This document shows, piece after piece, positions 182 to 34,183 of a DNA stretch of 38,517 nt (position 1 is the stretch's first letter; every line of letters starts with the position of its first letter). The notes beneath the pieces were generated by a model. The model worked only from the letters and a program-made list of their open reading frames with translations. It made no database searches and was not told where the DNA came from. The translations under genes were made by a program, and so were the position numbers. This stretch comes from Candidatus Prevotella equi. Its GTDB lineage: Bacteria > Bacteroidota > Bacteroidia > Bacteroidales > Bacteroidaceae. The DNA is taken from positions 1 to 38,517 of the forward strand of contig JAGHTW010000155.1 of assembly GCA_018065145.1 (NCBI GenBank). Direction: 5' to 3'.

Positions 182-472
182 GTGAGGACTAGATATAAAA
201 AATATACTGACTACGGATTGACACAAGATGAAGTACGAGAGACATATGACTGGTTAAATACGCTTGCTGGAAGCGATTTAGAGATAGTTAAAGATATCAT
301 GGTGAACGAATTACCACCAAGCATCGGAGAGTACGTATTTATGGCCTTAACGCAGCGTAAAGGGTATTACAAACTGTACCACTTAGGTCTTGACTACTGC
401 AAAAGCGATTTCTACGGGTACAAGCGCAAAGGATTGTCTATAGCAAACACCTATATGAAAGGCGCTGAATAA
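182..472 (+). CDS. Putative ArpU/RinA-like late transcription regulator
   Basis: A 96-residue protein starting at GTG 182 behind a GAGGTG ribosome site. The C-terminal part (about residues 60-90, with SDFYGYKRKGLSIA) resembles the helix-turn-helix end of ArpU-type small phage regulators, where a helix is followed by an S/T-x-FY-xY-x-R/K-K-x-L pattern. It is the last gene of the long early operon and is followed at once by a strong terminator. That is the classic position of a phage late activator. Two promoters sharing an unusual upstream element (1561 and 12008) lie downstream in front of the packaging and capsid genes, and this protein is my best candidate for recognising them. The regulatory role is inferred from position and a weak motif. 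Confidence 0.5.
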   Translation: MRTRYKKYTDYGLTQDEVRETYDWLNTLAGSDLEIVKDIMVNELPPSIGEYVFMALTQRKGYYKLYHLGLDYCKSDFYGYKRKGLSIANTYMKGAE

Positions 473-1350: not shown

Positions 1351-1535
1351 TGGGGGCAAAGTACACAGATGCGCAGCACGCGGCAACAAACGCGTACAGA
1401 AGCGCCAGAGCACAGATCACTATATCTGTGACAAAGGAAGAAAAAGAGCTTATAGATCAGAATGCGAGGGATGCAGGAAAGAGTGTAAAGCAGTATCTCG
1501 TTGATCTGGCAAAAGCAGATGTGGAGCACGTGTAG
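1350..1535 (+). CDS. Ribbon-helix-helix (CopG/Arc-like) protein
   Basis: A 61-residue protein. After about 20 basic residues it shows a clear strand-helix-helix pattern: QITISVTKEEKELI, then a glycine turn (DAGKS) and the helix VKQYLVDLAKAD. This matches CopG/Arc ribbon-helix-helix repressors, which dimerise and insert the strand into the DNA major groove. It is the last gene of the 583-1535 operon; its stop lies inside the terminator hairpin. Likely a transcription regulator, perhaps acting on the palindrome at 535-550. No toxin partner is recognisable next to it, so I do not call it an antitoxin. Confidence 0.7.
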   Translation: MGAKYTDAQHAATNAYRSARAQITISVTKEEKELIDQNARDAGKSVKQYLVDLAKADVEHV

Positions 1536-1552
1536 GTACGTGCTCCTTTTTT
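1523..1552 (+). terminator. Intrinsic terminator
   Basis: GGAGCACGT (1523-1531) pairs perfectly with ACGTGCTCC (1538-1546) around a 6-base loop, followed by six T. It overlaps the stop codon of the ribbon-helix-helix gene and insulates late promoter 1 from upstream transcription. Confidence 0.92.
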
Positions 1553-1560
1553 GTTGCATA

Positions 1561-1599
1561 AAAGGTGCGTACTTTTTGGATTTTTAACTGTTCTATAAT
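1561..1599 (+). promoter_or_regulatory. Late promoter 1 (packaging/head operon)
   Basis: The 25-bp element beginning AAAGGTGCGTACTTTTT at 1561 is followed by -10 TATAAT at 1594-1599. There is no good -35 hexamer 17 bp upstream (ACTTTT). A second copy at 12008 differs at one of 25 positions and keeps exactly the same 33-bp distance from element start to -10. This looks like an activator-dependent late promoter. It lies immediately after a terminator and before the ParB/terminase genes. Confidence 0.75.
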
Positions 1600-1632
1600 G
1601 GAATATGACGGAGTATATCCGAAGGAGACAAG

Positions 1633-2670
1633 ATGCAGATTATCGAGAAAAAGCTAACAGATATTATACCATATGAGAAAAATCCGAGAAAAAATGATGC
1701 TGCTGTGCAGTACGTTGCAAACAGCATTAAGCAGTTCGGATTTAAAGTACCTATAGTGATTGATAAAAACGGCGTGATTGTTGCAGGACATACGCGCCAT
1801 AAAGCCGCAAATAAGCTTGGAATGGAAACAGTGCCATGCATTATAGCGGACGATTTATCAGAAGAACAAATAAAGGCTTTTAGAATCGCTGACAACAAAG
1901 TATCAGAGCAGGCAGAGTGGGATGAAGCTTTATTGATGGACGAAATTGAGGATCTGATTGAGTTTGATATGACTGATTACGGATTCGATTTTGTTGACAT
2001 TTTTGATATTGAGGAAGAGCACAAGAAAAACGCTGACGATACACAAAACAGGGTTGAAAACATAGAAAACCTTGCACTCGGTCAATTTGATGGCGAGGGT
2101 TATTACGATATTCCAAAGCTAAAACCAGTTTATGAGCTTCCAGAAATAAAGGAATGGATAGGTTTTAACTATGTATTGTCAGACGAAGATCCAACTGGAA
2201 AAGGTGTGCATTTCTTTATAGATGATTACCAGTTTGAACGTATATGGTCAAATCCTGAAAAATACGTTGAAAAACTCAAACAGTACGCTGCAGTTGCTAC
2301 ACCAGACTTTTCCCCGTATGGAGATATGCCAAACGCGCTGCAGATCTACAATCATTACCGAAAACACTGGGTAGGCGCTTTTTTACAAGAGCGTGGGGTT
2401 AAAGTAATCCCCACTATCCGCTGCAGTTCAGACAGAAGAAGCCTTGACTGGTATTTAGACGGAGAACCGCATGGCGGAATAGTAATAATTAGCTCCATGT
2501 GGGTAAATGATGAAAAGAAAGACAGGGTACTGGAAGAATACACAAAGATGTATGAGACATTAAAGCCTGCAAAGGTAATTATTTACGGCAAAAAAGTAGA
2601 CTGGCTGTATGGCAATGTTGAGTATATACCAAACTTTACGCAAAAAAGGTGGGGCGAAAACAATGGATAA
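1633..2670 (+). CDS. ParB-like nuclease domain fused to DUF4417
   Basis: A 345-residue protein with a GAAGGAG site before ATG 1633. Residues 1-95 form a ParB/Srx-type domain, with NPRKND near the start and the GHTRHKAA signature around residues 52-59. Residues from about 160 to 340 match DUF4417, with DYQFERIWSNPEKY, TPDFSPYGDMP and RKHWVGAFLQERGVKVIPT as landmarks. It lies first in the late packaging operon, just before terminase, where phages often carry ParB-like or methyltransferase genes. ParB-like domains are CTP- or DNA-related; DUF4417 has no established function. Role here unknown, possibly in DNA processing before packaging. Confidence 0.85.
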   Translation: MQIIEKKLTDIIPYEKNPRKNDAAVQYVANSIKQFGFKVPIVIDKNGVIVAGHTRHKAANKLGMETVPCIIADDLSEEQIKAFRIADNKVSEQAEWDEALLMDEIEDLIEFDMTDYGFDFVDIFDIEEEHKKNADDTQNRVENIENLALGQFDGEGYYDIPKLKPVYELPEIKEWIGFNYVLSDEDPTGKGVHFFIDDYQFERIWSNPEKYVEKLKQYAAVATPDFSPYGDMPNALQIYNHYRKHWVGAFLQERGVKVIPTIRCSSDRRSLDWYLDGEPHGGIVIISSMWVNDEKKDRVLEEYTKMYETLKPAKVIIYGKKVDWLYGNVEYIPNFTQKRWGENNG

Positions 2671-3040
2671 GGAAACACGCGGCGGCAGAAGAGTTAGAAA
2701 AAGAAAAAATGAGATTGTAAGAGCAATAATAACACTTGACAGTGGACATGTGATTGAATACGAAATCAAAAATGGATCAATTTACAGAGTTGATGGTTTA
2801 GAGATTGAAGAGGTTGAAACTACACTAAGCATTGATCAGATATTGCAAAATGCAAGATCAATGGGAAGTACAGTTGAAACATTTAACGCAAAGCAAGATA
2901 AGGAACTTCAAGAAAAAAGAAAGAAAGACCGTGAAGAAACTAATGAGTTTTTAAATGCGCACGATGTACAGAATAAAACAATGAAGCGCGGCACAAAAAT
3001 GAACAAAATCGCAAACAGACGAAGAAATAGGAGGCGATAA
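2663..3040 (+). CDS. Basic hypothetical protein
   Basis: A 125-residue protein. I take ATG 2663, inside the 3' end of the ParB-like gene, because an AAGGTGGGG site precedes it. The track start at 2609 would overlap 60 bases of ParB coding with no ribosome site. Both ends are strongly basic (GGRRVRKRKN and RRRNRRR), while the middle looks like a small beta region followed by a charged helix. This pattern suits a nucleic-acid-binding protein. It is coupled to ParB-DUF4417 and to the HExxH gene that follows. I do not recognise the family. Confidence 0.7.
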   Translation: MDKETRGGRRVRKRKNEIVRAIITLDSGHVIEYEIKNGSIYRVDGLEIEEVETTLSIDQILQNARSMGSTVETFNAKQDKELQEKRKKDREETNEFLNAHDVQNKTMKRGTKMNKIANRRRNRRR

Positions 3041-3042
3041 TC

Positions 3043-3711
3043 GTGGATAAAGATAAAAGAAAAGGCAAGAGAAAACTTAAGAACTCACAGGGCGAAGACG
3101 TAAAGATCAGAAAAGAACAGGATGTCTGGTCTGAAAGACATAATCCGAGCCAAGAAGCAGCGGTTGATCAGATCCTGACTGGTACGCGTGACATGAACGA
3201 CGAATACGGAATAATGGATAATGTTGACACTGTAAGTATTGCAGATATGGATAAAATCAATGTAATTGCATTTTACGACAACGAAGCAAACAAAATGGTA
3301 GTAAACAGAGCATTTACAGACATTGACGGAATTGAAGCTGCATACGCAGATTGCGTGGAAAAAGGATACCATCCTGCGCTTGGAGACAAGAGCGCTCTCT
3401 CTGCAGTTACGGCGCACGAGCTGGGGCATGCACTTGCTGACAAGATCAACGAAGCAAGAATGGCAAAAGGCGGCGGTGCAGAGGCAAATGAGCAGATCGT
3501 AAGAGATGCCTTCAATTCAATGGGAAGAAAAGATAAGTCACAGAGGGCACTGGATAAGGCGCGCGCTGGTATTAGTGGTTATGCAACAGAAAACTATCAC
3601 GAAACAGTCGCCGAATCAGTTGCTGACGTATACTGCAATGGCAAAAAAGCAAACAAATTTAGTCAGGCAGTAGTTAAGAGATTAAAAGAAGTAATGCAGG
3701 CCGAGTTATAA
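3043..3711 (+). CDS. Putative zinc metallopeptidase-like protein (HExxH)
   Basis: A 222-residue protein starting at GTG 3043 behind AGGAGGCG, two bases after the previous stop. It has an extended HExxH site, TAHELGHALA (about residues 124-133), and downstream HETVAESVADVY (about residues 186-197), where a third zinc ligand (E) is typical. This pairing is also seen in metallopeptidase-like domains attached to minor head proteins of other phages. The first 50 residues are basic and probably disordered. It lies between the ParB-like gene and terminase. It could process head proteins or act on a host target. No signal peptide, so it should act in the cytoplasm or particle. Confidence 0.65.
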   Translation: MDKDKRKGKRKLKNSQGEDVKIRKEQDVWSERHNPSQEAAVDQILTGTRDMNDEYGIMDNVDTVSIADMDKINVIAFYDNEANKMVVNRAFTDIDGIEAAYADCVEKGYHPALGDKSALSAVTAHELGHALADKINEARMAKGGGAEANEQIVRDAFNSMGRKDKSQRALDKARAGISGYATENYHETVAESVADVYCNGKKANKFSQAVVKRLKEVMQAEL

Positions 3712-3732
3712 AAAATAAAGGAGGACAAAAAA

Positions 3733-3873
3733 ATGGCAACAAAGAACACAGGAAGCAAGTCTAAGGGCGGATACGTAGAACCGACAAGTTATTTCTCAAA
3801 GGATCAGAGAAAGAAATATGGCCTCGGTGAATACGCAAAGAAAACCACAACAAAGAAAAGCGGCAAAAAATAA
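3733..3873 (+). CDS. Small basic protein (46 aa)
   Basis: Not in the ORF track. ATG 3733 follows AAAGGAGGAC, and the frame runs to TAA 3871-3873, 12 bases before the terminase start. The 46-residue product is Lys/Thr/Gly-rich (about one third Lys or Arg), with a short Tyr-containing centre (YFSKDQRKKYGLGEY) and a KKSGKK tail. It may bind DNA or be a small structural or packaging accessory. The ribosome site and spacing make it likely to be expressed; the function is unknown. Confidence 0.65.
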   Translation: MATKNTGSKSKGGYVEPTSYFSKDQRKKYGLGEYAKKTTTKKSGKK

Positions 3874-3885
3874 GGTGGTGATATA

Positions 3886-5469
3886 TTGGCAAACGAAGCG
3901 AATTTGATACCACAGGCGCATAAAATAACCGTAGAAGAGGCGTCGAAAGGCGGCAAAGCTTCGGTTGAAGCGCGCAGAAAGAAAAAAACAATGTCAGCGC
4001 TTGCCAGTATGATGATCAATGCAAGCCTAGAAGGAAAAGCAAAAGAATCAATACGGGATCAGTACGGAATAGCAGACGATGATATAACAGTCGCGTCTGC
4101 TATGATGGCTGGACAGATTAAGGCGGCCATGAAGGGCGATTCAAGGGCTTTTGGAATTATTGGCGCACTTGCACAGCAGGAAGAAGAGAAGAAAGCCAGA
4201 GAAGAGGCTGCGCAGGCTGCATTGTTAAAAAAGACATATCACATGGATTTAGACATGATTCCTGACAATTTCCATGCGCTTATACGTGATATAAGAGGGA
4301 AAAAACATCAGGAATATGTGTTTGAGGGTGGGCGTGGTAGCACTAAGTCATCAGACATATCACAGATAATTATTGAACTGATGCGGAATTATCACGACAT
4401 TCATTGTGTAGTTGTTCGTAAGGTGGGAAACACGCTGAAAGACTCAGTGTATTCTAAGCTAAAATGGGCGATAGGAATGCAGAATTTCACAGAGGAATTT
4501 GACGCGCATAAATCTCCTTTGGAAATTACTCTAAAGGCAACAGGCCAGAAAATATACTTCAGAGGCGCAGACGAACCAGAAAAGATAAAATCAATTTCAC
4601 CTGAATTTGGCTATATTGCAATTATATGGTTCGAAGAATTGGATCAGTTTAACGGGGAAGAGGAAGTGCGAAATATTACGCAGTCAGCTATTCGAGGTGG
4701 CGAACTTGCGTGGATATTTAAGTCATTTAATCCGCCAAAAACTGCAAACAACTGGGCGAATAGGTATGTGCAGATACCAAAAGCAAACATGGTTGTGCAT
4801 CATTCGACATATCTGGAAGTCCCTCCTGAATGGCTGGGCAAGCCTTTTATCGAAGAAGCAGAACACCTTAAAGAGGTAAATCCAGAGGCATATGAGCACG
4901 AATATTTAGGCATACCAAACGGAAACGGCGGAAACGTATTTGAATATCTGGAGATCAGAGAAATTACGGACGATGAAATAAAAGGCTTTGATAGAATTTA
5001 TCAAGGCCAAGACTGGGGATGGTTTCCTGATCCTGCAGCTTTTATCAGGTTGGCATACATGCCAGCGCAGGACATGATAGTTTTGATAGACGAGCATTAC
5101 GTAAACAAGACGCCGAACAAAGAAAACGCCGAGTGGATTTTGCAGCAGGGGTACAATGACTATGATATCATATGCGACTCTGCAGAAAAGAAATCTGTAA
5201 ACGACTATAGAGATTTAGGACTGCCTGCAAAAGCGGCCATAAAAGGCGCAGGAAGCGTTGAATATGGCATGAAATGGCTTCAGGGCAGGAGAATTGTTAT
5301 TGATCCGAACAGGACGCCGCATGCATATCAAGAGTTTACGCAGTATGAGTATGAACGCGACAAAGAAGGTAATCCTATAAGCGGTTATCCAGACGCAAAC
5401 AATCATTTGATAGATGCCACAAGATATGCTCTTGAAAGATTCTGCAACAAGAGAGGAAATATTGCATAA
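3886..5469 (+). CDS. terL: Terminase large subunit with fused small-subunit-like N-terminus
   Basis: A 527-residue protein with TTG start 3886 behind AGGTGGTG. Residues from about 110 form a PBSX/Terminase_3-type enzyme: Walker A GGRGSTKSS (about 150), Walker B IAIIWFEELDQF (about 245), then the nuclease domain with QDWGWFPDPAAF, ICDSAEKKS and NHLIDATRYAL carrying the metal-binding acids. It pumps DNA into the prohead and cuts it. Residues 1-105 (ASKGGKASVEARRKKK and onward) resemble a KGG-type protein that related phages encode separately upstream and that is sometimes called small terminase. No separate small terminase gene is evident. Its last base overlaps the portal start. Confidence 0.93.
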   Translation: MANEANLIPQAHKITVEEASKGGKASVEARRKKKTMSALASMMINASLEGKAKESIRDQYGIADDDITVASAMMAGQIKAAMKGDSRAFGIIGALAQQEEEKKAREEAAQAALLKKTYHMDLDMIPDNFHALIRDIRGKKHQEYVFEGGRGSTKSSDISQIIIELMRNYHDIHCVVVRKVGNTLKDSVYSKLKWAIGMQNFTEEFDAHKSPLEITLKATGQKIYFRGADEPEKIKSISPEFGYIAIIWFEELDQFNGEEEVRNITQSAIRGGELAWIFKSFNPPKTANNWANRYVQIPKANMVVHHSTYLEVPPEWLGKPFIEEAEHLKEVNPEAYEHEYLGIPNGNGGNVFEYLEIREITDDEIKGFDRIYQGQDWGWFPDPAAFIRLAYMPAQDMIVLIDEHYVNKTPNKENAEWILQQGYNDYDIICDSAEKKSVNDYRDLGLPAKAAIKGAGSVEYGMKWLQGRRIVIDPNRTPHAYQEFTQYEYERDKEGNPISGYPDANNHLIDATRYALERFCNKRGNIA

Positions 5470-6881
5470 TGAGTATTCTGAAGACAATAAAAGGATGGAT
5501 AGCAGGTATGTTCAAAGGAAAAGCAAAAGAACTATTTGACATTGAAACAATAACAACTGCAAAAATGGATAGTTTTGTCAGACAGTGTGTGAGAATATAT
5601 CAAGGCACTCCTGACTGGCTGGATGATGACGACGAAATAAAAACGATCAATTTTGCAGAGGTAATCTGCGCAGAGACGGCACGGCTTGCGACGTTGGCAA
5701 TCGGCGTAAGAGTTGACGGTAGCAGCCGAGCAGAGTATCTGCAGAAGCAGATTGACAAAGTATATTACAGCCTGCGCACGTGGGTTGAGTACGGCCTCGC
5801 ATACGGTACAATTGTATTAAAACCATCAACAGATGGAGTTGAGTTGTTCACAAATGAAAGATGTATTTTGACAGACAGAGACGGCGACAATGTAACGGGC
5901 GCTGTATTTGTTTTTAATGAAGAAGCAAATGACGTATATTATACGCGCTTAGAGTATCACAGATTCGCTGAAGATGGCGCATACCTGATTGATAATAAGT
6001 GCTTCAAAGGAAAAGCAGAAAACGACATGCGCGAAGCGGTAGGAATTGATCAAACACCGTGGGCAGGTCTTTTAGAGTCAGCAAGAATTGACAATCTTGA
6101 AAAGCCTTTGTTTGCGGTATTCAGAACGCCAAACGCAAACAATATTGAGCTTGACAGTGTGCAGGGAATGCCTATATTTGCAACAGCAATTGAGGAACTA
6201 AAAGATCTTGATATCGCATACAGCAGAAACGCAACAGAAATAAACGACTCAAAAAGAACCGTGCTTATGGATGCGGATAAGCTTTTCCCGTTTGGCAGGA
6301 TGTCAGATATTGCAGCGCTTGACAAAACAATCGCTACTGATCGCATGCGTGATAAGATGGGAATGCCAAAATATGTCAGAATGGTTGAGGGTGACGGAAA
6401 CACTGGATTCTATCAAGAAATCAATCCTACACTCAACACCGTAACAAGAGAAGAGGGCATAAATTTCCTGCTATCAGTAATTGGATTCAAATGCGGATTC
6501 AGTAATGGTTATTTTGTATTAGATCAGAAGACTGGCATGGTTACTGCAACTCAGGTTGAAAGTGACGACAGAAGAACAATTCAGACAATCAAAGACGTAA
6601 GAGACAAACTGCAGAAATGTATTGAGGATCTTGTTTATGGTATGGATATCATGGCGGATCTGTATTTCTTAGCACCAGTCGGCGAGTATGAACTTATATT
6701 CGACTTCGGAGACATTACGTATAACAGAGAAGAAGATCGAAGCAGATGGTGGAGCTATGTAATGAGCAACAAAGTTCCTGCGTGGATGTTCTTTGTAAAA
6801 TTCGAGGGAATGACAGAGGAAGACGCGAAAGCAATGGTATCGGAAGCGACTCCCAAAGAAGAGGGATTATTTCCTGAATAA
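5469..6881 (+). CDS. Portal protein (A118/SPP1-like)
   Basis: A 470-residue protein whose ATG 5469 shares one base with the terminase stop (TAATG). Length, position after the large terminase and sequence style (an early KTINFAEVICAETARLA helix, then DLDIAYSRNATEINDSKRTVL near the middle) match A118-family portal proteins. The portal forms the dodecameric ring at one capsid vertex, docks terminase and later the head-tail connector. No frameshift or missing segment is seen. Confidence comes from gene order plus overall resemblance; no single catalytic motif exists for this family. Confidence 0.9.
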   Translation: MSILKTIKGWIAGMFKGKAKELFDIETITTAKMDSFVRQCVRIYQGTPDWLDDDDEIKTINFAEVICAETARLATLAIGVRVDGSSRAEYLQKQIDKVYYSLRTWVEYGLAYGTIVLKPSTDGVELFTNERCILTDRDGDNVTGAVFVFNEEANDVYYTRLEYHRFAEDGAYLIDNKCFKGKAENDMREAVGIDQTPWAGLLESARIDNLEKPLFAVFRTPNANNIELDSVQGMPIFATAIEELKDLDIAYSRNATEINDSKRTVLMDADKLFPFGRMSDIAALDKTIATDRMRDKMGMPKYVRMVEGDGNTGFYQEINPTLNTVTREEGINFLLSVIGFKCGFSNGYFVLDQKTGMVTATQVESDDRRTIQTIKDVRDKLQKCIEDLVYGMDIMADLYFLAPVGEYELIFDFGDITYNREEDRSRWWSYVMSNKVPAWMFFVKFEGMTEEDAKAMVSEATPKEEGLFPE

Positions 6882-7024
6882 GTGAATATGGCCATTTTAT
6901 ACTTTCTTTCATAATGTATGACTTCAAATAACCTATCAATCACTTGATTTTGCGCCGCCAGAGGTGTGAGTTGTTCCAGCAACGAGAATAGGCTGGCTGG
7001 TCTCCTTTCTAAAAGAGGTGAAAT
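6882..7024. other. 143-bp gap between portal and minor capsid genes
   Basis: This is an unusually long gap for an otherwise gapless operon. I find no good start or ribosome site for a gene on the + strand; the longest frame after ATG 6887 has 8 codons. A weak hairpin CCAGC/GCTGG lies around 6976-7001. The AAAAGAGGTG site at its end serves the next gene. The content is otherwise unexplained. Confidence 0.4.
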
Positions 7025-7519
7025 ATGGGAAGAGTACACAGTTTTTTTGATAAGATTTTTCATAAGTACAATTTCAAACGGACGGGAAATGGCTTCAATA
7101 TAGTTATGAACTATACGCCGCTGGGAATCGCACTGGATCGCGCCCAGCTTGCTCTTGATTCGCAAGTATGGGCAGATATGCAGCAGTACATGCCATTTGC
7201 AACAGGCAACCTGATCAGGCAGACAAATACACTCAATCAGACAGTTTTGGGCACTGGTAAAGTGTACAAATATGATCCAAACGTAGAATATGCGCATTAC
7301 ATGTATGAAGGAATTCTGTACGTCGATCCAGTTTATAGAATCGGCGGATTTTACTCACCTGATTACGGTTTCTGGTCTCGCGCAGGCGTTACAAAAGTAC
7401 CGTCTTCAAGAGGCCTAAATTATACGAATCCTAAAGCAAAACCGCACTGGGATGAAGAGGCAATCAAGAACCATTCAAATGAATGGCTGGCGATTGTAAA
7501 AAAGGAGCTTAATAAATGA
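7025..7519 (+). CDS. Minor capsid protein (Minor_capsid_2-like)
   Basis: A 164-residue protein, ATG 7025 behind AAAAGAGGTG. Residues 30-164 match the phage Minor_capsid_2 pattern: LDRAQLALDSQVWADMQQYM, then PFATGNLIRQ, a tyrosine-rich middle (YAHYMYEG) and a C-terminus containing NPKAKPHWDEEAIKNHSNEW. Such proteins are thought to be head-tail connector or completion components. In many relatives the gene lies after the major capsid gene beside other connector genes; here it sits between portal and MuF. The first 30 residues are an extra basic stretch. A start at 7106 would remove it but lacks a ribosome site. Confidence 0.8.
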   Translation: MGRVHSFFDKIFHKYNFKRTGNGFNIVMNYTPLGIALDRAQLALDSQVWADMQQYMPFATGNLIRQTNTLNQTVLGTGKVYKYDPNVEYAHYMYEGILYVDPVYRIGGFYSPDYGFWSRAGVTKVPSSRGLNYTNPKAKPHWDEEAIKNHSNEWLAIVKKELNK

Positions 7520-8799
7520 TTACTCCTAAATTCTTAGATGAGATAATCGAAGCGACACGGGCAGCAGTCAATAAAATGAACAATCTGTTTATCGTTTTGA
7601 TTGTAAAGAGCATTTGCGCAGCGTTTAAGGCTGGAGAAGATAGACTTCTGACGCCCAGCACAATAAAAAACATAGGCAAACTGCTTAAAAGCGGCATGAA
7701 TGTTGATGATGTGCAAAAGATCATAGAAAAGCAAATGCCGTCCATAAAAAAAGAGATCAGAAAAGCATTCATGCAGTCAGCAAAGGAAATATCAGCGCAT
7801 AACAGCGAGATAGAAGAGCAGATGGTGCAGAATGCAAGGCTGGATGTTAAGCTGCCAAATACAACAGTGGAGGGTATTCCGACAAACCCTGCAGCGCTTA
7901 ACATGACAGTGCATGAAATAAGGGTGCTAGAGGCCGCGTACAGGCGTACAAACGGCACAGTCAATAATATATCCAATTCCATTGCTCCTGCTGTATATGA
8001 GGCTTATACGCAAGCGTGCGATACAGCTATTTTGTCTATACAGAGTGGCAGATCACCTGCACAGGCAATAATGGACGCAGTAGAGGAAGCAACAAAGAAC
8101 GGAATAAAGGTTATCGAGTACAATTCAGGCCGCAAAGACAGTGTAGATGTCGCAATTGCCAGAGCAGTAAGAACTGGAGTGAATCAGGCAAACAGTGAGA
8201 TTATACTTACCAGATGCGCTGAGCTGGGCATTCAGTACGTCAAAGTAAGTCAACACAGAGGCGCAAGAGTTACCCACAAAAACGATTTTACAGATCATTC
8301 TTGGTGGCAGGGCAAAGTTTACAGCCTGAACTGGAACAGTCCTGAGATTTCTGGATTTGTGCACGATGTTCCTGCAGATGATCCGAAATTCGGATACATG
8401 CAGGAGATAAAAACAAAGTATCTGCAAGCACCAAAGGAATTTGATTTTCCTGACTTTGTAAAGACTTGCGGATATGGGCGCATAGAAGGAATTATAGGTA
8501 TAAATTGCCGTCACACTTTTCAGGCGTGGCTTCCAGAATACAATAAAATCACTGCAGAACCGATTGATCCAGAGGACAACGAAAAGCGGTTCAAACTGGA
8601 ACAGAAGCAGCGATCAATGGAAAGAGCAATGCGCGCTTTAAGGCGTGAAATAGAGGCATTTGAAGCGATAGAACCGCAAACAAAGGATACAAAAGATAAA
8701 ATCTCCGAAAGAAAGAGGAAACTGAAACAGATGGGCGCTGAGTTGATGCAATTCTGCAAAGAAAACTCATTGCCGTACTTTTCTGAAAGAATAAGATAA
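7516..8799 (+). CDS. Phage minor capsid protein (Phage_min_cap2 / MuF-like)
   Basis: A 427-residue protein, ATG 7516 overlapping the previous stop (ATGA). The middle holds the family landmarks: VAIARAVRTGVNQANSE, then SQHRGARVTHKNDFTDHSWWQ, and GINCRHTFQAWLPEY near residue 335. These match Phage_min_cap2 (the A118 gp4-type protein), which sits on or inside the capsid near the portal and may be ejected with DNA. The last 80 residues are a charged coiled coil. In relatives this gene follows portal directly, in line with the order here apart from the inserted Minor_capsid_2 gene. No toxin domain is visible at the C-terminus. Confidence 0.88.
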   Translation: MITPKFLDEIIEATRAAVNKMNNLFIVLIVKSICAAFKAGEDRLLTPSTIKNIGKLLKSGMNVDDVQKIIEKQMPSIKKEIRKAFMQSAKEISAHNSEIEEQMVQNARLDVKLPNTTVEGIPTNPAALNMTVHEIRVLEAAYRRTNGTVNNISNSIAPAVYEAYTQACDTAILSIQSGRSPAQAIMDAVEEATKNGIKVIEYNSGRKDSVDVAIARAVRTGVNQANSEIILTRCAELGIQYVKVSQHRGARVTHKNDFTDHSWWQGKVYSLNWNSPEISGFVHDVPADDPKFGYMQEIKTKYLQAPKEFDFPDFVKTCGYGRIEGIIGINCRHTFQAWLPEYNKITAEPIDPEDNEKRFKLEQKQRSMERAMRALRREIEAFEAIEPQTKDTKDKISERKRKLKQMGAELMQFCKENSLPYFSERIR

Positions 8800-8813
8800 A
8801 GGAGGTGCTTCTT

Positions 8814-9173
8814 TTGTATGTAAATTTCAATCCAAACCCTGCACTCAATAAAGTGGGTGATTGTGTAATCAGGGCGTTATGCAAAGCACTGTCGAAACCG
8901 TGGGACGAGGTTTTCTGTGAATTGTGCGCCTATGGGTACAGCGCAAAAGACATGCCGTCAGCTAACCATGTATGGGGCAAATATCTGTCTGATAAGGGCT
9001 TTAAACGCCGCATAATTGATTGCGATTGCACAGTTGATGAATTTTGCGACAAGCACAAAGAAGGGCTTTATATACTTGCTATACAAGGCCATGTGGTGTG
9101 CTGCGTAAATGGTTGCTACTATGACTCATGGGATTCTGGGAAAGAAATTCCTTTGTATTACTGGGAGAGATAA
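8814..9173 (+). CDS. Conserved phage protein, possible papain-like cysteine peptidase fold
   Basis: A 119-residue protein. I choose TTG 8814 because GGAGG (8801-8805) is 8 bases upstream. The track GTG at 8805 lies inside that ribosome site. The pattern is N-terminal GDCVIRALCKAL, later ILAIQGHVVCCV and then YYDSWDSG. Cys, His and Asp in this order and in these contexts resemble papain/C39-like folds. It is a recurrent small protein in the head modules of Bacillota phages and has no assigned role. It might process a head protein or act on a host protein. The catalytic inference rests on motif order only. Confidence 0.65.
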   Translation: MYVNFNPNPALNKVGDCVIRALCKALSKPWDEVFCELCAYGYSAKDMPSANHVWGKYLSDKGFKRRIIDCDCTVDEFCDKHKEGLYILAIQGHVVCCVNGCYYDSWDSGKEIPLYYWER

Positions 9174-9176
9174 AAA

Positions 9177-9377
9177 ATGAAAATCTGTGAATACACCATG
9201 CCAGAGATCAGATACCTGCTGGCAGAGGCAAATTTCACAGAAGATGAGCGCACACTGTTTGAAATGCGGTGTGTGAATGTACCACTGGAAGAATGCGCAG
9301 AGCGAATGAATGTAAGCAACTCAACAGTAAACAGGTTGAGCAAGCGCGTAAAAAATAAAATTGATAAAATTATGTGA
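9177..9377 (+). CDS. Sigma-70 region 4-like HTH protein
   Basis: A 66-residue protein whose C-terminal half, LEECAERMNVSNSTVNRLSKRVKNKI, is a textbook region-4 helix-turn-helix, preceded by FTEDERTLFEMRCV (the usual 'E...l.lR' helix). Small region-4-only proteins of this kind bind DNA or RNA polymerase and may alter phage transcription. It starts 3 bases after the previous stop with GGGAGAG as ribosome site, and is followed by a strong terminator. It is a second candidate, besides 182-472, for a factor acting at the late promoters, although its place inside the late operon fits feedback or later timing better. Confidence 0.75.
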   Translation: MKICEYTMPEIRYLLAEANFTEDERTLFEMRCVNVPLEECAERMNVSNSTVNRLSKRVKNKIDKIM

Positions 9378-9386
9378 TAGTTTTTA

Positions 9387-9419
9387 GGCAGTAAACTGAA
9401 ATGGTTTGCTGCCTTTTTT
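9387..9419 (+). terminator. Intrinsic terminator within the late region
   Basis: GGCAGTAAAC (9387-9396) pairs with GTTTGCTGCC (9404-9413, one G-T wobble) around a 7-base loop, followed by six T. It separates the packaging genes from the next gene group and may be partial or overridden, because no strong promoter is evident right after it. Confidence 0.88.
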
Positions 9420-9521
9420 GCTGCCATAATTAAAACATGATAACACAGTACAACAATCTCTATTTATCCATTGATGATAGAGACATAATTGACGAATTGA
9501 ATAGATTGGAGGCAATAAAGG

Positions 9522-9914
9522 ATGACGACATATCCGTATCAGCAGAATTACTATCCGTACCAGCAGCCGCAGTTCTCACAACCGACGGCAAATACGGGGA
9601 TCAATTGGGTGTCTGGAGAAGGGGCTGCGAAATCTTGGATGGTATCGCGTGGAGAAACTGTACTTTTAATGGACAGTGAAAATCAGTGTTTTTATATCAA
9701 ATCTGCAGATGCAAGCGGTATGCCGTTACCTTTACGCATATTTGATTACACAGAACGCTCCCAGAACGCGCTACAAGGCGCAAATACGGCTTTGATTCAG
9801 AGCAATGATGAATTTGTTACCCGTGCAGAATTTGACGGTTTACGGGCTAAATACGAAGAGCTTGAAAAGCAGATAAAAAGACCAGTAAAGAGGGAGGCAA
9901 AAGCTGATGAGTAA
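9522..9914 (+). CDS. Conserved gut-phage structural-region protein
   Basis: A 130-residue protein, ATG 9522 behind TTGGAGG. The first 30 residues are Tyr/Gln/Pro-rich and repetitive (YPYQQNYYPYQQPQ). A small beta domain follows, WVSGEGAAKSWMVSRGETVLL and CFYIKSADASGMPLPLR, then a short coiled coil and a basic tail. I have seen this arrangement often in clostridial gut phages between the packaging and capsid genes, without known function. The stop overlaps the next start by 8 bases. Likely a small head-associated protein. Confidence 0.7.
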   Translation: MTTYPYQQNYYPYQQPQFSQPTANTGINWVSGEGAAKSWMVSRGETVLLMDSENQCFYIKSADASGMPLPLRIFDYTERSQNALQGANTALIQSNDEFVTRAEFDGLRAKYEELEKQIKRPVKREAKADE

Positions 9915-10119
9915 TCCTTTGTACAATTCACTGGCTGGAAGCATGCCACAAAATAACAACATGATGCAGATGATACAGCAATTTCAGCAATTTAAGCAGA
10001 ACCTGCAAGGAGATCCAAAGCAAATTGTGATGAATATGTTATCAAATGGCCAGATCTCACAGGCACAGCTTAATCAGGCGCAGCAGATGGCAAACCAGTT
10101 GCGCGGCATTCTCAAATAG
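9907..10119 (+). CDS. Small Gln/Asn/Met-rich phage protein
   Basis: A 70-residue protein, ATG 9907 overlapping the previous gene. It is low in complexity: MQMIQQFQQFKQNLQ, then GDPKQIVMNMLSNGQISQAQ and LNQAQQMANQL. It appears mostly helical with no cysteine and no membrane segment. Proteins of this composition accompany the previous gene in many gut phages. The two probably act together, but no role is known. The GAGGCAAAAG sequence upstream can serve as ribosome site. Confidence 0.65.
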   Translation: MSNPLYNSLAGSMPQNNNMMQMIQQFQQFKQNLQGDPKQIVMNMLSNGQISQAQLNQAQQMANQLRGILK

Positions 10120-10124
10120 TATGT

Positions 10125-10153
10125 AAGGTGCACACTTATATAAATATCATAAT
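10125..10153 (+). promoter_or_regulatory. Partial late-promoter-like box before the Cys-rich protein gene
   Basis: AAGGTGCACACTT at 10125-10137 matches the core of the late element (AAGGTGCRTACTT, one change), followed by AT-rich DNA with CATAAT at 10148-10153. The spacing to a -10 differs from the two main late promoters, so it may be a degenerate or differently arranged site. Tentative. Confidence 0.35.
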
Positions 10154-10170
10154 CGAAGGAGATTATTACA

Positions 10171-11010
10171 ATGACAGACGGATTATCAGCAAGTGATGTT
10201 GCTCTGATTCAGGGCAATGGAAGAAGCGGCATGGGTGGCTTTGGTGACGGCGAAGGCTGGTGGGTAATCATTCTCTTTGCACTCATTTTCGGATGGGGCA
10301 GAGGCGGCTGGGGCGGCAACGACTGCGGCAGCAATGGCGGCACATACCTTGGCGAGAATTACGCACTTATCACAGACAATGCAACACTGGAGCGCAAGAT
10401 TGATGGAGTATATGCAGGCATTTGTGACAGCACATTTGCACTGAACAATACCATCAACAACGGTTTTGCGTCAGCACAGAACACAATGACGCAGGGATTT
10501 GCAGGCCTTAACACTGCACTGGTAACACAGGGCTATGAGACAAGAAATGCAGTTACTCAGGATACTATCGGTAACATGCAGAACACAAACCTGCTTCAGG
10601 GTGCTATCAAAGATTGCTGCTGCCAGACTCAGCAGAACCTTGCAGACGTTAAGTATACTATCGGATCTACTGGCGCAGGCATTCAGTCACAGATCCAGCA
10701 GTGCTGCTGCGATGTATCAAGACAGATCGAAAGAGGATTTGCTGATACAAATTACGCAATGGCTACACAGAATTGCGCGACTCTGCAGGCAATTGATAAG
10801 GTTGGCGACAGAATACTTGAAAGACTCACTCAGGACAAGCTTGACGCATTGCGCGATGAAAATGCATCTTTGCGTTTGACTGCTTCACAGACTGCACAGA
10901 ATCAGTATTTGATCAACCAGCTCAAACCTTTGCCCGTTCCCAGCTTCAATGTTCCGAACCCTTGGGGATGTAACTGCAACTGCAATTACGGCGGCACTAC
11001 AATCGCATAG
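10171..11010 (+). CDS. Cys-rich coiled-coil protein with one transmembrane segment
   Basis: A 279-residue protein. Residues 30-44 are hydrophobic (WWVIILFALIFGW), flanked by Gly-rich stretches such as GRGGWGGNDCGSNGG. The rest is a long helical region with phage-fibre-like phasing, interrupted by two CCC clusters (DCCCQTQQ and QQCCCDVSR), and it ends with CNCNCNYGG. The triple-Cys clusters in matching contexts suggest an internal repeat, and disulfide or metal linkage. Members of this type recur in clostridial gut phages next to the two previous genes; function unknown. The membrane segment is unusual in a head module and could mean an ejected or envelope-acting protein. Confidence 0.7.
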   Translation: MTDGLSASDVALIQGNGRSGMGGFGDGEGWWVIILFALIFGWGRGGWGGNDCGSNGGTYLGENYALITDNATLERKIDGVYAGICDSTFALNNTINNGFASAQNTMTQGFAGLNTALVTQGYETRNAVTQDTIGNMQNTNLLQGAIKDCCCQTQQNLADVKYTIGSTGAGIQSQIQQCCCDVSRQIERGFADTNYAMATQNCATLQAIDKVGDRILERLTQDKLDALRDENASLRLTASQTAQNQYLINQLKPLPVPSFNVPNPWGCNCNCNYGGTTIA

Positions 11011-11039
11011 GTAACTTGGAGCATTAGGCTTAGTTGAAA

Positions 11040-11072
11040 GGGTGTTTCATGTTACGTGGGACGCCCTTTTTT
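11040..11072 (+). terminator. Intrinsic terminator (with wobble pairs)
   Basis: GGGTGTTTC (11040-11048) pairs with GGGACGCCC (11058-11066) using G-T wobbles, followed by six T. It lies after the Cys-rich protein gene and just before the ribosome site of the next gene, so readthrough must feed the next gene unless a promoter is missed. Confidence 0.7.
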
Positions 11073-11086
11073 ATGGAGGTGTAAAT

Positions 11087-11494
11087 ATGTTTTTAGGACA
11101 GATTGATAATTATTTTGTCCCTTCAGGAGAAGCAAACAACGTGATCCCTATTCGGACAAAATCAAACACAAACGAAAAGATCATCAATAGACGCGGTATC
11201 ATTTATTTTCCGCAGAACGGGAATTTTGACGTTGATGCAACAATATCTGTAAGCGCAACAGCAGCGCAAAATGTTACTGTGAGCATTTACGCAGAAGATG
11301 GCGCAAGAGCGTCAGTTGTTGCAACAATTCCTGCTCCTCCTGACGGGGAGACGGTTGGCGTTGCAAATGTTTCTCTGGTGGATGCCATTAAAGTAATTCT
11401 GACAAAATACAGAAATATTGCGAATATTTATATCACTGTTGATCAATCAGAAGTAACTGTAAACGGCTATATCAGAATAGAGTATGTGCGATAG
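11087..11494 (+). CDS. Hypothetical beta-rich structural protein
   Basis: A 135-residue protein. ATG 11087 follows TGGAGGTG; the track start at 11042 lies inside the terminator and is rejected. The sequence has regularly alternating hydrophobics typical of a beta sandwich (ATISVSATAAQNVTVSIYAED and later ANIYITVDQSEVTVNGYI). That composition fits a capsid decoration or other particle surface protein, and the gene lies in the head module. No motif allows a firmer call. Confidence 0.6.
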   Translation: MFLGQIDNYFVPSGEANNVIPIRTKSNTNEKIINRRGIIYFPQNGNFDVDATISVSATAAQNVTVSIYAEDGARASVVATIPAPPDGETVGVANVSLVDAIKVILTKYRNIANIYITVDQSEVTVNGYIRIEYVR

Positions 11495-11505
11495 GAGGTG
11501 TTGAT

Positions 11506-11961
11506 ATGGCAAACATGGAAAAAATGATGGATATTGTCTGCGCAGAGATCGAAAAGATTGCAGAAAAAGGACTGACTACACAGAATCTGGAGACAGCATA
11601 TAAACTCATCGACATGATGAAAGATCTGAAGACTGTTGAAGGAATGGAGGAATATTCTGACGGCGAAAGCGGAGCAAGAGGAAGATACGCAAGACGCGAT
11701 GCTATGGGCAGATATGCGAGAAGATACGACGGCGGAAATTCTTATAATGACGGAATGAACGGATACGAGCAGAGATACATGCAGTCAAAGAGAGCATACA
11801 GAAATGATCACAGCATGGCTGCAAAACAGGATATGCTGCAGGATCTGGATGACTTTATGCAGGATATGCACGGCAAGCTGAAAGAACTGAAGCGTGATGC
11901 AGATACACCTGAGGAACGCGAGACCATTGAAAGATACATGAAGATGCTTGAAAGAGTATAA
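11506..11961 (+). CDS. Hypothetical phage protein with RGRYARR repeats
   Basis: A 151-residue protein with a GGAGGTG site before ATG 11506. It has helical ends and a low-complexity centre carrying GARGRYARRDAMGRYARRYDGG, which contains two RYARR units, then Asn/Tyr/Gly-rich sequence. The C-terminal helix is Met-rich and charged (DLDDFMQDMHGKLKELKRD). It is a common protein type in clostridial gut phages before the capsid operon, without assigned function. The Arg/Gly/Tyr centre could bind nucleic acid. It is the last gene before terminator 11977-12002. Confidence 0.6.
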   Translation: MANMEKMMDIVCAEIEKIAEKGLTTQNLETAYKLIDMMKDLKTVEGMEEYSDGESGARGRYARRDAMGRYARRYDGGNSYNDGMNGYEQRYMQSKRAYRNDHSMAAKQDMLQDLDDFMQDMHGKLKELKRDADTPEERETIERYMKMLERV

Positions 11962-11976
11962 TATTCGTGTATCTAG

Positions 11977-12002
11977 GGGCAGTGTAAAAACTGCCCTTTT
12001 TT
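11977..12002 (+). terminator. Intrinsic terminator before late promoter 2
   Basis: GGGCAGT (11977-11983) pairs perfectly with ACTGCCC (11990-11996) around a 6-base loop, followed by six T. It lies immediately upstream of late promoter 2, the same arrangement (terminator, then late element) as at 1523-1599. Confidence 0.92.
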
Positions 12003-12007
12003 GCGTT

Positions 12008-12046
12008 AAAGGTGCATACTTTTTGGATTTTTGCTTGATGTAAAAT
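12008..12046 (+). promoter_or_regulatory. Late promoter 2 (capsid/tail operon)
   Basis: AAAGGTGCATACTTTTT begins a 25-bp element at 12008 that matches late promoter 1 at 24 of 25 positions. The -10 TAAAAT lies at 12041-12046, at exactly the same distance. There is no consensus -35. It drives the scaffold, capsid, tail and lysis genes through a 250-base leader. Confidence 0.75.
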
Positions 12047-12295
12047 AAAAGGGTGGAGCAATCCACATCATCTTGTGTCCTTCTTTCGGATTGGATTGTT
12101 ATTTCTGTACTCGGCGGAAATAGCATGACGCAGTTTAGTTTAGGCTGGTTAAGAGCGCTGTAATCAAAAGATATGCAGAGACGCATGTTCAAATCATGCA
12201 ACTGCGCTTTGGCAGATATGCCTTAAATATCAAATCATAAACAATTCATGGTGGACGCGGTTACACACCTAAAACAACCTAAAATGGAGGAAATT
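12047..12295 (+). other. Long 5' leader of the capsid operon
   Basis: About 250 bases separate the late -10 box from the scaffold start, in contrast to about 33 for late promoter 1. I see no gene in it. Besides the tRNA-like fold it holds a hairpin made by CAATCC (12059-12064) with GGATTG further down, and GGCA-GATA-TGCC (about 12211-12222) just after the cloverleaf. A structured regulatory leader is likely. Confidence 0.55.
12129..12207 (+). ncRNA. tRNA-like cloverleaf in the capsid operon leader
   Basis: A complete cloverleaf can be drawn. The acceptor CGCAGTT/AACTGCG is 7 of 7 Watson-Crick. The T arm is GCATG/CATGC with loop TTCAAAT. The D arm is GTTT/GAGC (two G-T wobbles) with an 11-base loop having A14, G15, GG18-19 and A21. 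U8 and a G15-C48 pair are present. The fifth arm departs: CTGTA/TGCAG closes 11 bases instead of 7. With one bulged A it can zip further (ATC/GAT) to an AAAA tetraloop, leaving no anticodon. There is no encoded CCA. It is therefore either a decayed or odd tRNA or, more likely, a tRNA-mimic leader element. Confidence 0.65.
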
Positions 12296-12892
12296 ATGAA
12301 AACAGACGAACTGAAAGAAAAAGGACTCACAGAGGAACAGATTGCATTTGTAATGGCAGAAAACGGCAAGGATATCGGAAAAGTGCAGAAAAAGCTTGAC
12401 GATATGACTGCTGAAAGAGACAAGGAAGCAACCAGAGCAACGACTGCAGAGGAAACTTTGAAGAAGTTTGAGGGTGTGGACGTTGAGGCCATTAAAAAAG
12501 ATCTTGCAGACTGGAAGACAAAGGCAGAAAAGGCCGAAAGCGATTATGCAGCTAAGATTGCAGAGAGAGACTTTGACGACATGATCAAAGATGCAATTTC
12601 CAGTGCAAACGGACTTAATGCAAAGGCAATCAAAGCACTTTTGGATACAGATGCGCTGAAGGCATCCAAGAACCAGAAGGAAGATGTAGCAGCGGCAATT
12701 AAAGCCCTGAGCGAAGCTGAAGACAGTAAAATGTTGTTTAAGCAGCCTGAGGCAAAAGCGCCTGCGAAATTCACATCTACCAGCACAGGAAGTGCAACAG
12801 GTGGAAATGTAACAAAGGAATCTATTATGGCTATTAAGGATCGCGGTGAGAGACTTCAGGCAATCTCACAGCATAAAGATCTTTTCCAGTAA
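12296..12892 (+). CDS. Capsid scaffold (phage minor structural GP20-like)
   Basis: A 198-residue protein. ATG 12296 follows TGGAGGAAATT; the track start 12248 lies in the leader without a ribosome site. It is Glu/Lys/Ala-rich and almost wholly helical: LTEEQIAFVMAENGKDIGK, then a long coiled coil and a C-terminal FTSTSTGSATGGN linker with a basic helix. This matches GP20-type scaffolds, which direct assembly of the HK97-fold capsid shell and leave before DNA entry. Its place immediately before the major capsid gene supports the call. Confidence 0.88.
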   Translation: MKTDELKEKGLTEEQIAFVMAENGKDIGKVQKKLDDMTAERDKEATRATTAEETLKKFEGVDVEAIKKDLADWKTKAEKAESDYAAKIAERDFDDMIKDAISSANGLNAKAIKALLDTDALKASKNQKEDVAAAIKALSEAEDSKMLFKQPEAKAPAKFTSTSTGSATGGNVTKESIMAIKDRGERLQAISQHKDLFQ

Positions 12893-29843: not shown

Positions 29844-29860
29844 TATTTTCATTAAAAAAA

Positions 29861-29875
29861 TACCGAAAAAAGGTT
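29861..29875. promoter_or_regulatory. Operator O2 (overlaps early -35)
   Basis: TACCGAAAAAAGGTT, 15 bp, matching TACCG-N5-CGGTA with two changes. Its last two bases are the first two of the early promoter -35 box. Confidence 0.7.
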
Positions 29876-29902
29876 GACACATACCGACATTAGGTATATA
29901 TT
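29874..29902 (+). promoter_or_regulatory. Early lytic promoter (pR-like)
   Basis: Perfect -35 TTGACA at 29874-29879, 17-bp spacer and -10 TATATT at 29897-29902. Operator O2 touches the -35, and O3 fills the spacer exactly. This is the start of the long early operon, which ends at the terminator 481-511 on the circle. Confidence 0.88.
29882..29896. promoter_or_regulatory. Operator O3 (early promoter spacer)
   Basis: TACCGACATTAGGTA, 15 bp, centred in the spacer between -35 and -10 of the early promoter; binding would exclude RNA polymerase. It matches the family TACCG-N5-CGGTA with one change. Confidence 0.8.
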
Positions 29903-29913
29903 ACATTATGTAA

Positions 29914-29928
29914 TACCGAAAAACGGTA
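29914..29928. promoter_or_regulatory. Operator O4 (perfect palindrome after the early -10)
   Basis: TACCG-AAAAA-CGGTA, the perfect consensus palindrome, lies just after the early promoter start region, 23 bp before the Cro-like start. Confidence 0.85.
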
Positions 29929-29950
29929 GATGAAGAAAGGAGACGGTTAA

Positions 29951-30154
29951 ATGGGTATCACACTTAAGGCTGCAAGAGTTAATGTCGGAATGTCTCGGAC
30001 TGTTGCCGCAGAAAAATTAGAGGTTGCTGTAAGCACACTTCGTAATTACGAAATTGGCAAAACATATCCACCTGTGGATGTTGTTAAGCGAATGGAGAAT
30101 GTATACGGGGTATCTTATAGCGATCTTATTTTTTTACCTATGTATACCGAATAA
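29951..30154 (+). CDS. Cro-like HTH regulator
   Basis: A 67-residue Xre-type protein, nearly all DNA-binding domain: LKAARVNVGMSRTVAAEKLE (helices 1-2) and VAVSTLRNYEIGKTYPPVDV (recognition helix and following turn). ATG 29951 follows AAAGGAG. First gene of the early operon and divergent from the CI-like repressor; the classic Cro place, presumed to repress the repressor promoter through the same operators. Operator O5 overlaps its stop codon. Confidence 0.85.
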   Translation: MGITLKAARVNVGMSRTVAAEKLEVAVSTLRNYEIGKTYPPVDVVKRMENVYGVSYSDLIFLPMYTE

Positions 30155-30159
30155 CGGTA
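30145..30159. promoter_or_regulatory. Operator O5 (perfect palindrome overlapping the Cro-like stop)
   Basis: TACCG-AATAA-CGGTA, the second perfect consensus copy, spans the stop codon of the Cro-like gene. A repressor bound here, about 230 bp from O4, could loop with the main operators or block elongating polymerase. Confidence 0.75.
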
Positions 30160-30165
30160 CATAGA

Positions 30166-30180
30166 AACCGAAGGAAGGTA
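30166..30180. promoter_or_regulatory. Operator O6 (half-degenerate)
   Basis: AACCGAAGGAAGGTA, 21 bp centre to centre from O5 (two helical turns), matches the operator family with two changes. It also contains the GGAAGG ribosome site of the next gene, so the resemblance may partly be chance. Confidence 0.5.
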
Positions 30181-30185
30181 TATAA

Positions 30186-30338
30186 ATGAATGAGCTTCAG
30201 GCGGACAACGCAATTAAATTACTGGCCAGACTGTACTGCCAGCAAAACGGAATTGAAAAATTCGAAATTTTAATGAAGAAGGAGAAGAGAGATGAAAAAG
30301 AATTTTGTAATCGGAATACTGGCAGGGCTGATTGTTAA
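30186..30338 (+). CDS. Small early protein (50 aa)
   Basis: Below the track limit. ATG 30186 with GAAGGAAGG upstream, ending at TAA 30336. The product, starting MNELQADNAIKLLARLYCQQ then NGIEKFEILMKKEK, matches a common tiny early protein of clostridial phages ('...LL..LY..QNG.e...'). Its last 15 codons overlap the next gene in another frame, and are probably less constrained. Function unknown. Confidence 0.65.
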   Translation: MNELQADNAIKLLARLYCQQNGIEKFEILMKKEKRDEKEFCNRNTGRADC

Positions 30339-30516
30339 TAGAGAAATTTATTCTCAAAACTCAATATGGCTTCAGATTGGTTTTGTAATTACAATCGCAT
30401 TTTTTGTGCTTGTGGTGATTTCAGAAGTCGAGTGTGTATTGGAAGAAAGAGCAAAGAAGCGCAGAAAAACCGAGAGAATGCGCAGACAGTTGGAAAGAAT
30501 AACAGGAGGCAGATGA
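30292..30516 (+). CDS. Small membrane protein
   Basis: A 74-residue protein, ATG 30292 with GGAGAAGAG upstream, within the end of the previous gene. One or two hydrophobic helices (FVIGILAGLIV and IWLQIGFVITIAFFVLVVI) are followed by a strongly basic cytoplasmic tail (RAKKRRKTERMRRQLE). Early phage membrane proteins of this kind can be involved in superinfection exclusion or replication anchoring; no evidence for either here. Confidence 0.7.
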   Translation: MKKNFVIGILAGLIVNREIYSQNSIWLQIGFVITIAFFVLVVISEVECVLEERAKKRRKTERMRRQLERITGGR

Positions 30517-30809
30517 TGGAAGACGAAAGAAGGAACAATTTACTTGATTTGATGCGAAAACTATCCTTATCCGCTACAGCATATCAGGAAGTGAGAGAAG
30601 ACGGATTTGATTTAGGTGTTCATGTAAGTGACACATTTATGGGCATTGACACAAAGACAGTAGTGCCCATTTACAAAGGCATTCAGGTTCTTGCAGAGGC
30701 TGCAGAAAAAGAGCTGAAAGAAGAGATCAAATGCGGAAGTTTGTTTCTGAGTTTTGACGCGTTTGGTGTGACTTTTATGCAGGTTGATTTCAAAGGAGAG
30801 GAAAGATGA
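30516..30809 (+). CDS. Hypothetical early protein
   Basis: A 97-residue protein. Two ATGs, 30513 and 30516, follow AGGAGG; the second gives the better 6-base spacing. The track start at 30366 is a shadow frame. The sequence is helical, then a beta/alpha part (DLGVHVSDTFMGIDTK and SLFLSFDAFGVTFMQVDF). It overlaps the Gp157 start (ATGA). Unrecognised. Confidence 0.65.
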   Translation: MEDERRNNLLDLMRKLSLSATAYQEVREDGFDLGVHVSDTFMGIDTKTVVPIYKGIQVLAEAAEKELKEEIKCGSLFLSFDAFGVTFMQVDFKGEER

Positions 30810-31315
30810 GCAATTTATATGAACTTACAGCAGAGTACAGAGAGCTGCTGATGATGCTGGAAGACAGCGAGACTGCAGATGAGGTAATTATTGACACCCT
30901 TGAAGCAGTAGAGGGTGAGCTTGAAATTAAAGCGGAAGGATATGTAAAAGTTATACGCAGCATGGAGGCAGACGCAAAGGCACTTATGGAAGAGGCCGAC
31001 AGACTCGCAGAAAAAGCTGCAGTTGTTAAGAACAGAATCGAAAAGCTGAAGCTTGCTTTGCAGATGGCACTTATTGCGACGGGGCACGACGACAGGGAAG
31101 GCGTTCAGGCTGGACTTTACAGGATCAAACTTGTGAACAACGGCGGCCAGCGTCCTTTGATCATTGACGGAGAAGTCCCCAACAGATTTGTCAAGATGAT
31201 TCCCCAGAACGATAATCACGCGATCAGGCAGCATCTTGAAGAGCTTGCAACTGCAGGAATCGAATGTACATGGGCGCACCTTGGTGAGCGCGGTAAGCAT
31301 ATAACAATCAAATAG
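30806..31315 (+). CDS. Gp157-family protein
   Basis: A 169-residue protein, coupled by ATGA to the previous gene with AAAGGAGAGG upstream. The N-terminal half is helical (LYELTAEYRELLMMLED and a long coiled coil). The C-terminal half (GLYRIKLVNNGGQRPLIIDG, then VPNRFVKMIPQNDNHAIRQHL) matches the Siphovirus Gp157 family, where it often precedes recombination genes, as here. Family members have been linked to phage resistance in Streptococcus; the molecular role is unclear. Confidence 0.85.
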   Translation: MSNLYELTAEYRELLMMLEDSETADEVIIDTLEAVEGELEIKAEGYVKVIRSMEADAKALMEEADRLAEKAAVVKNRIEKLKLALQMALIATGHDDREGVQAGLYRIKLVNNGGQRPLIIDGEVPNRFVKMIPQNDNHAIRQHLEELATAGIECTWAHLGERGKHITIK

Positions 31316-31331
31316 TAAAGGAGGACATGAG

Positions 31332-32837: not shown

Positions 32838-32842
32838 AACAA

Positions 32843-33259: not shown

Positions 33260-33269
33260 GAGGAAAGTT

Positions 33270-34087: not shown

Positions 34088-34090
34088 TCA

Positions 34091-34135: not shown

Positions 34136-34137
34136 AG

Positions 34138-34170: not shown

Positions 34171-34183
34171 TTCTGGAGGATCA

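Follow-up and report, generated by a model that had tools for sequence, protein, structure and literature searches.

The window analysed here is the whole of contig JAGHTW010000155.1 (38,517 nt), a complete circular contig from a metagenome-assembled genome that encodes a temperate siphophage of a gut-type bacterium. Its late genes are preceded at two places by near-identical sequence elements, and a 96-residue protein encoded at 182-472 (the 182 protein) very probably reads them. The contig termini carry an exact 101-bp direct repeat (1-101 and 38417-38517), which makes it a closed circle and so a phage genome that has been excised or has circularised. With the ends joined, the early operon beginning at 29951 reaches 182-472 as its last gene, the place that the initial annotation had given it. 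The element of late promoter 1, AAAGGTGCGTACTTTTTGGATTTTT, and that of late promoter 2, AAAGGTGCATACTTTTTGGATTTTT, are identical at 24 of 25 positions, and both sites contain AAAGGTGCRTACTTTTTGGATTTTT. Each element starts 33 bp upstream of its -10 box and each promoter lies directly behind an intrinsic terminator (Table 1), with no TTGACA-like -35 at either promoter. The sites are imperfect dyads, one per promoter, placed over the -35 position without arrays of direct repeats. By comparison, the best in-register 25-mer pair from 100 Markov-resampled windows reached 19/25, and a scan of the window with up to three mismatches found no further copy beyond 1561 and 12008, and none in 100 shuffles. 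The two near-identical elements without a -35, as first annotated, thus stand.

Table 1. Coordinates of the late promoters, the candidate activator genes and associated features in the window
Feature	Position	Strand	Description
Late promoter 1, putative activator element	1561-1585	+	spans about -45 to -21, counted from the expected start
Late promoter 1, -10 TATAAT	1594-1599	+	from sequence; register common to relatives; start expected near 1605
Late promoter 2, putative activator element	12008-12032	+	
Late promoter 2, -10 TAAAAT	12041-12046	+	from sequence; register common to relatives; start expected near 12052
Intrinsic terminator	1523-1546	+	directly upstream of late promoter 1
Intrinsic terminator	11975-11998	+	directly upstream of late promoter 2
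182 gene	182-472	+	96-aa fam182 (phrog_11237-type) protein, proposed late activator
Sigma-like gene	9177-9377	+	66-aa sigma-70 region 4-like protein; rival activator candidate
First gene of the late operon	1633-2670	+	ParB_N + DUF4417; followed by the terminase large subunit gene
Scaffold gene	12293-12892	+	capsid scaffolding protein; first gene downstream of late promoter 2
Structured leader of the scaffold transcript	12129-12281	+	tRNA-like, 12129-12207; GP20-b-like, below threshold, 12210-12281
Early operon	29951-38416		continues over the circular junction into 182-472
Stem-loop (rejected third copy)	10120-10142	+	8 pairs, 7-nt loop; leader of gene 10171-11010

About 190 loci, designated by L numbers, were gathered by searches with the terminase, the 9177-9377 protein family and the 182 family, and a de novo search within each locus, followed up at weaker cut-offs, looked for stretches that resemble one another and keep the same register to a TAnnnT box. 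Many phages show the same two-promoter architecture, with one copy where the late operon begins and the other ahead of the scaffold gene, and each phage has an element of its own (TTGGTACAAC, AAAATGGTACAAAT, AAATATGTACAAAT, ACATGTACCACAAC, AAATGTGTACAGAAA, AAAATGTGGGGACAA, AAAGGGTACAACG, AATGTGCATACAAAA and AAACGTGCATACTTACAA). Aligned on the -10, the class consensus is AAAAnTGGTACAAMT-N10-TnTGnTANAAT. Most relatives carry an A-C step at -35/-34, 17 bp upstream of the -10 hexamer, and the -10 is often TG-extended. The two window elements belong to a late-promoter class of Clostridia phages, with an A-rich, TGTAC-like sequence over the -35 position in fixed register with the -10. A position weight matrix (PWM) of the class, built without the sites of the window and L084, scored above 17 bits at 111 sites of the late-gene strand and at a single site of the other one, counts that take in 27 seed sites and loci overlapping within one record. 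The phage-specific late promoter class proposed in the initial annotation is supported, and literature searches on Clostridia late promoters yielded nothing closer.

Judged by register and context, the window sites are a divergent GTGCATAC subclass, common to L084, L150, L085 and L004. Four things tie them to the class: the register that they share with it, their two places in the genome, the homology of the 182 gene and the AAANGTGCATAC subtype sequence. With at most one mismatch, this subtype occurs in register twice each in the window, L084 and L150 and also in L085 and L004; one additional AAANGTGCATAC-like site in L015 is probably due to chance, and the opposite strand of the loci holds no copy.

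Across 17 non-redundant phages, the similarity of the elements tracks the identity of the 182 proteins (r=0.73, p=0.0002), and the spacer between element and -10, used as a control, gives r=0.31 against the same identities. Among the 13 phages with both a 182-type and a 9177-type gene, the 182 correlation persists when 9177-type identity is held constant (partial r=0.67, p=0.0002). With the two candidates taken one at a time, the 182 family gives r=0.69 (p=0.0002) against the element, and 9177-type identity does not track it (r=0.20, p=0.07; partial r=0.05, p=0.35). Phages that differ in their 182 paralogues agree with this result. The record of L119 contains one 182-type gene, of the MLTRNKK type, and ACATGTACCACAAC at both promoters; that of L116 contains one of the MNLRKATL type and AAAAGTGGTRKAGAG at both promoters. 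Both paralogues are encoded in L122 and L189, where the sequence covered holds one promoter of each type. This set is the sharpest case for a 182 protein reading the element. Together, the covariation and the paralogues support 182-472 as the probable cognate activator, as had been suggested from the window.

The presence of the two features was compared in 9177-bearing records of at least 30 kb, collapsed by hand to 16 lineages, with a promoter called at a PWM score >15. A class promoter is found in 10 of the 16 lineages, all ten of which have a 182-type gene, and the gene is missing from 4 of the 6 lineages without the promoter (hypergeometric 66/8008 = 0.008, by hand). No 182-type gene is present in L089, L118, L124 and L100, but these records are fragments or end near the promoter; L190 and L192 are not informative, as the genes that come after their 182-type gene in the sequence covered are those for replication and a recombinase. 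The initial annotation had reasoned that the element should not occur in phages lacking a homologue of 182-472 or of 9177-9377. For 182-472 this holds, with no record of at least 30 kb that has a class promoter and lacks a 182-type gene. For 9177-9377 it does not, since three class-promoter records have no such homologue in the sequence covered, although these may be fragments. In L005, a close relative that encodes a 78% identical 9177 protein, neither a 182-type gene nor a class element is present, and another repeat, ATAACATGCG / CGCATGTTAT, lies near the -10 of both late promoters (8670, 18117 and 18155). The missing gene and the different repeat make it likely that the late promoters of L005 use a different activator.

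Several observations weigh against assigning the window elements to the 182 protein. The covariation can partly reflect shared ancestry, and the spacer control correlates weakly too. L125, L128, L134 and L136 have a 182-type gene but no recognisable class element. The window sites themselves score low with the class PWM (6.4 and 0.1 bits), short of its 14-bit cut-off, and their class membership thus rests on architecture, on the bridging element of L150 and on 182-protein homology. Furthermore, 182-472 and late promoter 1 are separated by a cassette of 1 kb that has a promoter and a terminator of its own.

The 182 protein belongs to a family without a described function. It has no match in Pfam or NCBIfam, including TIGR01637 (ArpU) and TIGR01636 (RinA), its relatives match neither of these two NCBIfam profiles, and its own genome holds no TIGR01637 match. 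Profiles of RinA, Alt and phi13 Ltr gave none either, so that the label "ArpU-like" of the initial annotation is not retained. Among the PHROGs profiles, phrog_11237 (function unknown) matches 182-472 weakly (E 0.0033), the L084 form at 1e-4 and the long form of L083 at 3e-32; an iterated hidden Markov model unites all three forms and matches 76 frames in the collected loci. The long form of L083 also weakly matches phrog_248 (E 7e-4), which RinA matches as well. Aligned by hhalign against RinA, Alt, phi13_25 and the 9177 family, the 182 family gave nothing significant, and 182-472 as a single-sequence query had no match in IMG/VR, where an alignment is needed. In L084, L147, L173, L110, L113, L008, L041, L177 and others, the late promoter follows the 182-type gene directly.

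The AlphaFold2 model of the 182 protein is confident (pLDDT 94.4) and consists of five helices. Its closest solved fold is chain F, presumably sigma, of a mycobacterial transcription-initiation complex (VIA Z 5.5, 61 residues, 2.3 A), and 1s7o gives Z 4.5, both below the level counted as clear. Small "ECF sigma factor" models are listed for it in a viral structure library, and a Foldseek search of the PDB found no significant match. The model may thus bear a weak likeness to the sigma region 4 fold, which is suggestive only.

We consider it very probable from these comparisons that the elements at 1561 and 12008 are binding sites of a late activator, the 182 protein, which would recruit sigma-A polymerase. 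The protein would be made as the last early gene product and would bind as an oligomer to the stretch from about -45 to -21, which covers the position of the -35 box normally read by sigma region 4. As the sites are imperfect dyads, the oligomer is probably a dimer. Once bound, it could enable the sigma-A polymerase of the host to initiate at a -10 too weak to act alone. Promoter 1 would drive the packaging and head genes, and promoter 2 would restart transcription past the terminator, so that the structured leader, the scaffold gene and the remaining virion genes are transcribed.

Four rival readings were weighed. The sigma region 4-like protein encoded at 9177-9377 might read the element as a spare region 4 with a new -35 specificity, and its clear sigma region 4 similarity, the location of the element at -35 and the frequency of 9177-type genes in class-promoter phages would suit this role. 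The covariation rejects it, however: the 9177-type proteins of L116 and L119 are 97% identical despite their differing elements, the close homologue of L005 occurs without such an element, and the class-promoter records that lack the gene also argue against it. The gene is, moreover, itself encoded within the late operon, and we regard this protein as a decidedly improbable reader. It is also improbable that the 182 protein, rather than recruiting polymerase, loads at the element as a Q-like factor for antitermination or polymerase modification. Long transcription units follow, and Q-binding sites overlap the promoter, as the element does here. Yet the sites lie upstream of the -10 and over the -35, where a DNA-bound activator fits, and the position of each promoter after a terminator, together with its repetition downstream, suggests re-initiation rather than read-through; no pause-like element was sought.

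A reader supplied by the host, either an alternative sigma factor or another regulator, is very unlikely. Hosts do have many sigma factors, but the element varies from phage to phage in step with a phage gene, and among 399 family genomes its exact 20-mer is present in one, there only in this contig; the same 20-mer has no match in IMG/VR. The 24/25 identity inside one genome could also arise from a recent intergenic duplication or from a repeat with some other function, for instance in packaging or recombination, and no transcriptional role. This is hardly credible, as the flanks differ while the spacing from element to -10 is conserved, and in divergent relatives a pair is retained at both of these places and confined to one strand.

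Activation by the 182 protein likely works as it does for the late activators Ltr, RinA and Alt. Sequence-divergent families of the Ltr superfamily in Gram-positive phages (phi13 Ltr and LtrC-type) have a common gene position, and Ltr, RinA and Alt enable late promoters from sites more distant than -35; the Alt binding site consists of four imperfect direct repeats spanning -76 to -32 (PMC13123087). The phi13 Ltr sites are four direct repeats between -107 and -42, whereas each promoter of the window has a single element over the -35, and the second promoter copy before the scaffold gene is also unlike phi13. The 182 family shares no sequence or profile similarity with phi13_25, which was taken as Ltr from its position. 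RinA of phi11 and ArpU are alike to 182-472 in position and proposed role, and RinA has a sigma-region-4-like C-terminus, a fold that the 182 model may weakly resemble, but the matching profiles and a significant hhalign score against phi11 RinA are lacking. Alt of the lactococcal phage TP901-1 is likewise a late-promoter activator encoded just before the terminase genes, and shows no similarity to 182-472. The lambda CII and T4 MotA promoters resemble those of the window in combining an activator site over or beside the -35 with a sigma-70 -10; they differ in their unrelated proteins, in the element sequence and in serving lysogeny or middle genes instead of late genes.

More tentatively, and with somewhat less than even confidence, phrog_11237-type proteins may be widespread, undescribed late activators of Clostridia phages, acting as detached region 4 substitutes with variant-specific elements that replace the -35 while host sigma-A reads the -10, and with two paralogues able to divide the late promoters. 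A function is thereby proposed for a family of phage proteins so far catalogued as unknown, and the promoter signature would help to locate late operons in uncultured gut phages. The matched pairs of protein and element form a specificity series for how a tiny phage protein could redirect sigma-A polymerase, and the two-paralogue phages make this question testable in one reporter experiment.

A weaker core copy of the element had been annotated at 10125. It shares 13 bases with the element, has no -10 in the correct register and, as AAGGTGCACACTT, is the top of a hairpin about 30 bp upstream of the start codon at 10171. In about 20 homologues of gene 10171-11010 a hairpin, mostly flanked by UACAU...UGUAAAUA, lies shortly before the start codon and is followed by the ribosome site. 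The stems are unrelated between relatives (AACCGC/GCGGUU, AAUCUGG/CCAGAUU, AUAUAAAG/CUUUAUAU and UUAGGGC/GCCUUAA), and the hairpins are kept whatever late promoter element the relative carries. A third promoter copy was rejected on the conserved hairpin with varying stems and the absence of an in-register -10, and the site is instead a hairpin in a gene leader. The hairpin was seen in L005, L010, L025, L028, L084, L096, L098, L100, L102, L105, L107, L116 and L130. Its loops are often self-complementary (UGCGCA, UGGCCA and GUGCAC), and in three loci cow-rumen-4 ranks first among the Rfam models, each time below threshold.

The small-gene cassette between 182-472 and late promoter 1 (480-1546, about 1 kb) is flanked by terminators on both sides and has its own sigma-A-like promoter by eye (TTGACA at 524-529 and TATAAA at 547-552); L084 has no such cassette at the equivalent place. 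Three operator-like repeats, ATACCGAAAAAAGGT, ATACCGACATTAGGTAT and ATACCGAAAAACGGTA, lie at 29850-29930 between the divergent repressor and cro-type genes. These operators at 29.85-29.93 kb are of the ATACCG type and unrelated to the late element, and the possibility that the late element is a CI operator was rejected. A promoter pair with a different long common element, ACCATAGTGCGCACTACGTCAATATAAAAT, is found at 4450 and 6518 of L061, which has no 182-type gene. In several phages, structured RNAs lie downstream of late promoter 2 and ahead of the scaffold gene: tRNA-like in the window, L116 (13433-13500) and L105 (13339-13814), and RAGATH-21 with GP20-b in L102 (13829-13984) and L099 (11686-11841).
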